NCBI GenBank assembly: GCA_012519055.1
Contig: JAAYQU010000036.1
Location: 1-37,356 of the forward strand
Source: Bacteroidales bacterium
GTDB taxonomy: Bacteria > Bacteroidota > Bacteroidia > Bacteroidales > Salinivirgaceae
Reading direction: 5' to 3'
Length of the DNA stretch: 37,356 bases
The notes beneath the pieces were generated by a model, which was given only the letters and a program-made list of their open reading frames with translations, was not told the DNA's origin and searched no databases. Both the position numbers and the translations under genes were made by a program. Numbering within the stretch: the first letter of the stretch is position 1; every line of letters starts with the position of its first letter. Below, piece after piece: positions 28,432 to 29,633 of the stretch.

Positions 28432-28506
28432 GGGCGGTTAGCTCAGCTGGTTCAGAGCACCTGGTTTACACCCAGGGGGTCGGGGGTTCGAATCCCTCAC
28501 CGCCCA
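28432..28506 (+). tRNA. tRNA-Val (anticodon TAC)
   Basis: Acceptor GGGCGGT pairing with ACCGCCC, discriminator A, D-arm GCTC/GAGC, anticodon stem CCTGG/CCAGG around TTTACAC (anticodon TAC), T-loop TTCGAAT. No encoded CCA. It is transcribed alone, between its own promoter and terminator. Confidence 0.97.
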
Positions 28507-28514
28507 CAAACAAT

Positions 28515-28574: not shown

Positions 28575-29633
28575 ATGACTAACTACAACATATTTATCAC
28601 CGCCGCTACCAACCTGGCAAAACGCTTACATACTAATCAAAAAGATAAAGCAGGTGTTAGTTATTTCGATGGACACCTAAAAGCAGTAGCTAATCAAGGG
28701 CGAACCTGGTTAGAGAAAATTGCAGGGTATCTGCATGATGTATGTGAAGATACTCCTCATACCGTTGAGAATGTGTTGAATATGCTTGAACAAGAAGCAG
28801 GTACAGAACTCCCCTCGCTTCCAAAGCAGGAACTTGCTGACGCTCTTTATCTTCTAAATAACCACAATTTTACCTCACGTGATGAATATATTGTTGCTAT
28901 TGGAAAACAGCTGTTGGCAACGGCTGTAAAACTCAAGGACTTGCAAAATAATATGGATTTATCGCGCATACCAACCCCAACAAAAAAAGATTTAGAGAGA
29001 ATAAAACGCTATAAGTCAGAATATGACTATTTGACACAAAAGTATATGGAATTGCGTAAACCATGTATCCTCTTTGTTCATGGATATAACAGTAGTTCAT
29101 TAGGTTTTACGGCAAATGAGCTAAGACGACAATTGGGCGAAGAAGCCGTTGTCTTTGCTCCCTCTTTCTCTAATAAGTTAGAGCGGTTTGATAATATTTT
29201 GGCTAATATCGAGCAAGCGCAAGCAGTAGTTGATTATGAGGGAATTGATTTGGTTATCGGCTCAAGCATGGGAGCATTTACTGCTTTGAGAGTTAAGGGT
29301 GTACCGAGAATTATTATCAACCCCTGTATGAAGCCGTCTGAACAGTTTGAGAGACTTCTTTTTAATGAAACCACAACAGAAGAGATTGCTAAATACGTTG
29401 ATTTAGAACAAAGTCTCGCTCCTACAAAGTTAGAACAGGAACAGACATGGGCTCTATTTGCTGACGAAGATGAGCTCTTCTCCTACAAAGCTGAATTTCA
29501 AAGCCTTTTTGGAGCAACAAATTGTTTACAAGTTCCCGGCGAACATCGGAATAATTCCCAACGAGTTAGGGAGCACATTATACCGTTGATATACACCTTA
29601 ATTGAAAACGGGGTGATAAAATGTAGATGGTAA
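28575..29633 (+). CDS. Fusion of a SpoT/MESH1-like HD domain and a YqiA-like serine hydrolase
   Basis: A 352-residue two-domain protein. Domain 1 (residues 1-160) has the metal-dependent HD pattern of small SpoT/MESH1-like phosphohydrolases: KAGVSYFDGHLKAVA with H34, YLHDVCEDT with H54-D55, and VKLKDLQNNMDLSRIP with D122, the usual H...HD...D set. Relatives include (p)ppGpp hydrolases and HD proteins often labelled GTP pyrophosphokinase; no synthetase, TGS or ACT domain is present. Domain 2 (about 163-345) is an alpha/beta hydrolase close to the YqiA/UPF0227 esterases: CILFVHGYNSSSLG, nucleophile elbow GSSMG with S231, probable acid in FADEDELF (D297 or D299), and H324 in PGEHR. Both active sites look complete. 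The start ATG at 28575 is the first good one, and no stop or restart separates the domains. Substrates unknown. Confidence 0.85.
   Translation: MTNYNIFITAATNLAKRLHTNQKDKAGVSYFDGHLKAVANQGRTWLEKIAGYLHDVCEDTPHTVENVLNMLEQEAGTELPSLPKQELADALYLLNNHNFTSRDEYIVAIGKQLLATAVKLKDLQNNMDLSRIPTPTKKDLERIKRYKSEYDYLTQKYMELRKPCILFVHGYNSSSLGFTANELRRQLGEEAVVFAPSFSNKLERFDNILANIEQAQAVVDYEGIDLVIGSSMGAFTALRVKGVPRIIINPCMKPSEQFERLLFNETTTEEIAKYVDLEQSLAPTKLEQEQTWALFADEDELFSYKAEFQSLFGATNCLQVPGEHRNNSQRVREHIIPLIYTLIENGVIKCRW

Follow-up and report, generated by a model that had tools for sequence, protein, structure and literature searches.

A small alarmone hydrolase fused to a UPF0227-type serine hydrolase and conserved in three genomes

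The fusion gene and its surroundings

The window, by which we mean the whole stretch of 37,356 nucleotides from a Bacteroidales bacterium that was analysed, contains at positions 28575-29633 of the forward strand a single open reading frame of 352 amino acids without internal stop. Its product is a small alarmone hydrolase (SAH, residues 1-160) of the RelA/SpoT-homologue (RSH) superfamily, an enzyme kind that degrades toxic signalling nucleotides, followed by a UPF0227-type serine hydrolase (residues 161-352). The features of the gene are as follows.

28432..28507, + strand: tRNA-Val(tac), 67 bp before the fusion gene (context only)
28575..29633, + strand: fusion gene, 352 amino acids, ATG start; whole homologues are L014 (73% identity) and G280/L015 (58% over residues 1-343)
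28575..29054, + strand: small alarmone hydrolase (HD) half, residues 1-160, assigned by the match to 7smg, TIGR00691 and the structure model
28674..28676, + strand: H34, predicted metal ligand, identical in 30/30 chosen SAH rows
28734..28751, + strand: H54-D55 and E58-D59, identical in 30/30 chosen SAH rows and 3/3 fusions
28938..28940, + strand: D122, predicted metal ligand, identical in 30/30 chosen SAH rows
29055..29630, + strand: UPF0227-type alpha/beta hydrolase half, residues 161-352, assigned by PF05728, Abhydrolase_6 and esterase 4fle
29265..29267, + strand: S231, predicted nucleophile in GSSMG, identical in 8/8 aligned hydrolases and 3/3 fusions
29469..29471, + strand: D299, predicted triad acid, identical in 8/8 aligned hydrolases and 3/3 fusions
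29544..29546, + strand: H324, predicted triad histidine, identical in 3/3 fusions

That both catalytic sets stand in one frame had already been noticed in the first-pass annotation of this DNA, and H34, H54-D55, D122, S231 in GSSMG and H324 are all found where it placed them. E58-D59 and D299 can be added, which presumably complete the HD set and the hydrolase set, respectively; from family knowledge we take H54-D55 to be metal ligands and E58-D59 to be the catalytic pair. The gene lies behind the tRNA-Val gene, with a sulfate-permease gene on one side and a 4-alpha-glucanotransferase gene on the other, and its nine neighbours in the window belong to the families Zip, DHO_dh, HTH_3, Sulfate_transp, GH77, UPF0029, HSP90 and AA_kinase, with one neighbour assigned to no family. 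PADLOC returned no match for the fusion protein, and no publication on a SAH-UPF0227 fusion was found in the open-licence literature of PubMed Central.

The HD half

The HD half matches the (p)ppApp hydrolase of Bacteroides caccae (PDB 7smg) with an E-value of 1.3e-14 over residues 1-156 of the fusion protein, at 32-33% identity. Pfam HD_4, whose gathering score is a detection aid and not a defining trait of SAHs, gives E 0.11 and 12.7 bits as compared to a gathering score of 27.2 and so stays below threshold; among relatives it reaches 27.6 bits in the NT5C-fused and 38.4 bits in the metallophosphoesterase-fused SAH, which both pass, and 21.9 bits in L020, which fails. TIGR00691 (spoT_relA) is also under its cut-off (E 3.7e-5). 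Since HD_4 alone is weak, the assignment rests on 7smg, on the alignments with SAHs and on the structure model. In the alignment with 7smg H54-D55, E58-D59 and D122 are in register and H34 adjoins a one-residue gap. The 30 chosen SAH rows, in which all of these residues are invariant, include 7smg and are likewise identical at D24, K119 and N126. No match to the RelA_SpoT synthetase domain was found in the fusion protein.

The structure was modelled from an alignment of 31 sequences, comprising SAH rows and the two fusions; three mixed alignments, in which viral hydrolases fell onto the HD half (fully in two, partly in the third), were left out. Block-mean pLDDT values of the HD half are 94-98, with 86 for the first ten residues. 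In a Foldseek comparison using VIA-align the model superimposes on 7smg with a Z-score of 21.1 and 1.5 A over 141 residues, the next matches being the Pseudomonas SAH 6yvc (Z 16.9) and human MESH1 with NADPH (5vxa, Z 15.8). The HD half, on whose behaviour in a structure model the earlier reading had been made to depend, is with confidence predicted to adopt the RSH-type HD fold of the bacterial SAH kind, and by these Z-scores its model is nearer to the B. caccae enzyme than to MESH1.

Stand-alone kin of the fused SAH show 50-58% identity in family f88 and 56% in a Prevotella record. In the SAH tree the fusions and these stand-alone kin form a starred clade (96/95) apart from the 7smg clade (100/96), which comprises L022, L034, L021, L069 and two viral SAHs. 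A Streptococcus-phage-type SAH (L156) also falls outside the 7smg clade, so that this clade may not bound the Aph1 family, Aph1 being the name under which the B. caccae enzyme appears in the relevant part of PMC11699363. Aph1 and its prophage relatives have the fold and the full set of HD catalytic residues in common with the fused SAH. However, Aph1 is a single-domain protein that stands beside a toxin in the cases described in parts of PMC11699363 and PMC12226406, whereas the fusion protein has two domains and no synthetase neighbour was found for it. In the fused SAH and its kin H34 is also preceded by one additional residue, and the ED pair is followed by about ten additional ones; as the fused SAH stands apart from the B. 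caccae enzyme and has these insertions, its substrate may differ. Phage SAHs match the fusion at about 36% identity, and we infer that these are the same genes as the Aph1 genes of Streptococcus prophages.

The esterase half

The C-terminal half scores well above the cut-off of PF05728 (UPF0227; E 6.2e-10, 39.7 bits vs. 21) and is also matched by Abhydrolase_6 (E 3.9e-6) and by esterase 4fle (E 0.0037), but falls far below the curated cut-off of the YqiA equivalog (PRK11071; 31 vs. 252 bits). It shares with UPF0227/YqiA esterases (PF05728; 4fle, 9bi7) the nucleophile in a GxSxG motif, S231 lying inside G229-S-S-M-G233, as well as the triad acid and histidine. H324 is not scored invariant in the eight-row hydrolase alignment, one row being shifted at that point. 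Esterases of this kind are usually single-domain proteins. The hydrolase half has pLDDT values below 55 in the 31-sequence model, and a first model of the fusion, based on two sequences only, had a mean pLDDT of 39.6. No alpha/beta hydrolase appeared among the Foldseek and VIA-align matches, which carries no weight for a half modelled at such low confidence. By its sequence the C-terminal half is a UPF0227 hydrolase in which the predicted Ser-Asp-His set is present. The family labels of the first-pass annotation, SpoT/MESH1 type for the HD half and YqiA-like for the second, were right and can now be narrowed, to a bacterial SAH nearer to 7smg and to a UPF0227 hydrolase below the YqiA cut-off.

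Whole copies, selection and history

The second whole fusion, L014, comes from the record of an Ignavibacteria bacterium (JAAYTD010000029.1), and the third, L015, from G280, a genome of the window's own order. The three fusions show no indel across the joint and are identical at H34, H54, D55, E58, D59, D122, S231, D299 and H324. For the window copy and L014 the NG86 method yields 0.192/0.944 for residues 1-155 (dN/dS 0.20) and 0.150/1.284 for residues 164-352 (dN/dS 0.12), showing purifying selection on both halves in this one pair, the remaining pairs being saturated at silent sites. The first-pass annotation had named occurrence in this sequence only, an assembly error or a missed stop as what would speak against a true fusion; these are ruled out, because the whole fusion is present in two further genomes, in other gene surroundings and with neither indel nor stop at the joint.

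The fusion is rare. Whole copies were found in 1/60 relatives (the genome of the window itself), 2/393 genomes of the window's order (this genome and G280), 1/395 genomes of the phylum (again its own), 1/38 genomes of the family of G280 (G280), 0/59 genomes of the family of G301 and 1/123 genomes in the order of L014's genome (the latter's own). In G822, which belongs to the genus of G301, the SAH half occurs alone (L075): it has 67% identity, stops at the joint, and no hydrolase match was found in the 3.5 kb read around it. L075 falls inside the fusion clade in the SAH tree (98/90). The fusion clade with L015 has 96/96 in one SAH tree and, as a four-row clade, 83/92 in a second. The hydrolase halves of the three fusions group in a single clade (100/100). 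The simplest history is one fusion, then loss of the esterase half in the genus of L075. As L075 lies in the fusion clade with the SAH alone, the esterase half is not indispensable. Decayed remnants of a fusion or SAH gene were also seen, 67 amino acids long in G301:C19 (L017/L073) and shorter in G388:C17 (L035).

As to an origin in phages, no locus with both halves was found among 14 viral hydrolase loci and 80 viral SAH loci, the latter selected from 181 relatives, and a single-protein scan of viral contigs gave no relative of the fusion. Among 149 partial matches in phage records and 46 in plasmid records none covers 80% of the fusion query.

Mobility and orphan status

The fusion sits in three different neighbourhoods. 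The L014 copy is flanked by a gene for a small membrane protein and a gene that presumably encodes a type I methylase, and the copy in G280 by genes that we take to be L31-like and efflux-pump-like. In G001, a genome of the same genus as that of the window, no match to the fusion was found, the permease and glucanotransferase genes are 235 bp apart and the tRNA-Val gene lies beyond the glucanotransferase gene; this difference would reflect either a gain in the window or a loss in G001. A search for insertion scars or flanking repeats at the locus gave nothing convincing, and no neighbour gene recurs, the top Pfam family, ResIII, being present in 4/127 proteins (long proteins cut at 700 amino acids). 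The gene is patchily distributed, and probably moves horizontally or is lost readily.

A toxSAS toxin-antitoxin partner was considered and rejected, since there is no alarmone synthetase family among the nine window neighbours and the sole PF04607 match in the genome of the window (G000) is a 742-amino acid long RSH on another contig. More widely, in 23/23 SAH-bearing genomes checked (G000, G280, G783, G035 and 19 others) the contig with the SAH has no PF04607 match closer to it than 14 kb; PF04607 may miss divergent synthetases, including a divergent Apk domain, and the SAH of G862 lies at a contig end. In four of them (G822, G797, G798 and G808) SAH and PF04607 share a contig, and the match closest to the SAH, at least 14 kb off, belongs to a long RSH. 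The PF04607 search was used instead of phmmer with RSH queries, which misses a 355-amino acid synthetase-type frame (L060) as control; one RSH-query match (L126_17) we take to reflect a TGS-like similarity at the beginning of what is presumably a threonyl-tRNA synthetase. By these searches the fusion gene is an orphan, with no PF04607-type alarmone synthetase nearby. One stand-alone SAH (L125, G083:C4) follows genes that presumably encode a nicotinamidase and a nicotinate phosphoribosyltransferase.

Fusions among SAH, UPF0227 and NT5C

The 393 genomes of the order yielded 43 match rows, namely 2 whole fusions, 17 SAH-only rows (2 of them remnants), 23 hydrolase-only rows and 1 long RSH, which was set aside. 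In this sample 9/25 hydrolase-side loci have a second domain in frame (NT5C in 6, SAH in 2, BspA-type repeats in 1), five of the 25 being counted as unfused by frame length (200-217 amino acids; G296:C24, G215:C30, G086:C5, G189 and G359:C15). Among intact SAH loci 4/17 are fused, two to UPF0227, one to NT5C (L022) and one to a metallophosphoesterase (L003). The 28 NT5C matches of the sample include 7 fused to UPF0227, 1 to SAH, 1 to Phage_30_3 and 1 with an unassigned extension (Pfam was run on five of these NT5C proteins and the others were assigned by similarity). These counts come from a single-protein search and are lower bounds; they leave out L038 (401 amino acids, with an N-terminal stretch) and L020 (a SAH with a short C-terminal extension). 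From the search of the family of G301, three long hydrolase-holding frames (G849, G869 and G829) were left out of the fusion reading.

Ten UPF0227-NT5C proteins (L081-L083, which are in f2, L098-L100 and L102-L105) were collected from families f2, f56, f60 and f42. The hydrolase tree (without eight rows, L028, L013, L038 and five viral ones) and the NT5C tree (without L022, which is the same gene as L084, and L106, L028, L077, L107, L108 and L111) each require two changes for these fusions, and one origin is found in 0/200 bootstrap trees each, the starred branches alone not forcing two origins. Judged by these trees, the UPF0227-NT5C fusion probably has two origins.

In related genomes SAH, UPF0227 and NT5C are thus seen fused in every pairwise combination, forming a triangle; a truncated NT5C-SAH (L077) was also found in G862. 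Unfused SAH and UPF0227 occur together in 1 genome as compared to 0.69 expected (P 0.51) and SAH and NT5C, with fused genomes left out, give P 0.30, neither being above chance. For UPF0227 and NT5C 3 genomes compare to 0.76 expected (P 0.034), which is borderline, with a statistic that ignores kinship. The joined relatives of the parts hint that these clean-up enzymes work together.

Several single proteins from the same searches are recorded here in their own right. L003 (G026:C2, ORF 913-1920) joins a Metallophos_2 metallophosphoesterase and a SAH in one frame of 335 amino acids. In L022/L084 (G351:C37) an NT5C nucleotidase is fused to a SAH of the 7smg clade, and the upstream neighbour begins like what we take to be a zeta-toxin P-loop kinase. 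L089 (G146:C31) is an NT5C nucleotidase fused to Phage_30_3 (T4 gp30.3-like, E 2.5e-32). The SAH L068 (G797:C32) has a 160-amino acid N-terminal part, the whole protein having no Pfam match, and two UPF0227 hydrolases are followed by BspA-type leucine-rich repeats (L030, G086:C1) and by a repeat-like tail (L076, G830:C203), respectively. The gene of one UPF0227-NT5C fusion (L137, G328:C70) adjoins a presumably Cas9-like gene, with a presumably Cas1-like gene next.

Possible functions of the fusion protein

What could such a protein do? Known SAHs serve as antitoxins, as immunity enzymes and as NADPH phosphatases. To our knowledge, it is unclear which substrates UPF0227 hydrolases act on in nature. 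The orphan XccSAH of Xanthomonas campestris, which like the fusion is a SAH without a toxic synthetase, hydrolyses in the presence of Mn pppApp best, then (p)ppGpp and, slowly, NADPH, from which it removes the 2'-phosphate as reported for Mesh1 and for which its catalytic efficiency is some 3000 times lower than for pppApp (PMC9765508, in part). In contrast to the fusion, no esterase domain is named for XccSAH in these passages of PMC9765508. Human MESH1 (structure 9chy) is stated to act on PAPS too in the part of PMC12934728 that deals with it. The prophage Aph1 immunity enzymes of Streptococcus hydrolyse pppApp (PMC12226406, in part) and give partial protection from (p)ppApp toxins (passages of PMC12226406 and PMC11699363). 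For the hydrolase half, an enzyme of the YqiA/YcfP family is described in a portion of PMC13230378 as an esterase on short p-nitrophenyl or acyl esters.

Related parts also recur in predicted counter-virus operons centred on ADP-ribosylglycohydrolases. Section 3.8 of PMC9503650 (2022) describes calcineurin-like, alarmone-related (SAH-like) HD and HAD 5'-nucleotidase phosphatases coupled to ADP-ribosylglycohydrolases, as components that predicted anti-ADP-ribosylation operons contain alternatively or in addition, and proposes that they act after these enzymes. The operons of that section are from other phyla and contain an ADP-ribosylglycohydrolase, in some cases with a Nudix or WYL regulator, none of which is found among the nine neighbours of the fusion, and no UPF0227 esterase is named there.

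We consider the chances about even that the fusion protein is an orphan 3'-pyrophosphohydrolase plus esterase for the clean-up of adenine-nucleotide-type toxins or damage. It would be a cytosolic two-domain clean-up enzyme, whose N-terminal half would act as a Mn-dependent SAH and strip the 3'-pyrophosphate (or a 2'- or 3'-phosphate) from an adenine or guanine nucleotide. The most likely substrate would be (p)ppApp, so that ADP or ATP would be given back. The C-terminal half would be a Ser-Asp-His esterase that takes an acyl group off a small molecule, which plausibly has an adenine nucleotide as its handle (e.g. acyl-CoA, O-acyl-ADP-ribose or an acyl-nucleotide). The orphan status of the gene, its patchy distribution and its probable horizontal movement suggest a protective role against nucleotide-based attack or damage rather than one in core metabolism, and the triangle of SAH, UPF0227 and NT5C fusions suggests that the two halves are linked in function.

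A bolder version of such a link, to which we give rather little credence, is that SAH, UPF0227 and NT5C belong, as interchangeable components fused pairwise, to a single nucleotide clean-up pathway that has yet to be described, and that the window protein would catalyse two successive reactions on an adenine nucleotide that is both acylated and 3'-(pyro)phosphorylated (e.g. acyl-CoA or acyl-ADP-ribose phosphate). We know of no enzyme that combines two such steps. The first-pass annotation had likewise thought of one substrate processed in two steps; the fusion triangle speaks for this idea indirectly, whereas the lack of co-occurrence of the unfused genes and the solitary SAH of L075 speak against it. 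The last two observations would fit halves that counter two unrelated insults and have been fused as co-selected accessory immunity or detoxification genes, and this possibility, the main rival of our reading though clearly less likely, is also in line with the variety of SAH partners (UPF0227, NT5C, a metallophosphoesterase and an unknown domain). However, the partners do not look random, as SAH, UPF0227 and NT5C are each seen fused to both of the others and the UPF0227-NT5C pair appears to have arisen twice in both trees.

Alternatively, the protein may trim ADP-ribose or NAD(P), with the HD half as phosphatase and the esterase acting on O-acyl or ester-linked ADP-ribose. The phosphatase kinds listed in section 3.8 of PMC9503650 occur here in fusions with SAH or UPF0227, there is an NT5C protein with a fused Phage_30_3 domain, and the removal of the 2'-phosphate of NADPH by XccSAH (PMC9765508, in part) would fit as well. 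Yet the nine window neighbours include none of the families ADP-ribosylglycohydrolase, Macro, NADAR, Nudix and WYL, and at 23 SAH loci these five are also missing from the 25 most frequent neighbour families (out of 184); together with the strong preference of XccSAH for pppApp over NADPH this makes such trimming improbable. That the SAH alone works, with the esterase half carried along as a structural or catalytically inactive passenger, seems very improbable: L075 does retain the SAH alone, but S231, D299 and H324 are unchanged in all three fusions and dN/dS between the window copy and L014 is lower in the hydrolase half than in the HD half.

The conserved fusion connects SAHs with UPF0227 hydrolases and, taken together with the NT5C fusions, leads to a short list of possible shared substrates. 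The fusion could thereby reveal both the purpose of an orphan SAH and the target of a UPF0227 esterase.
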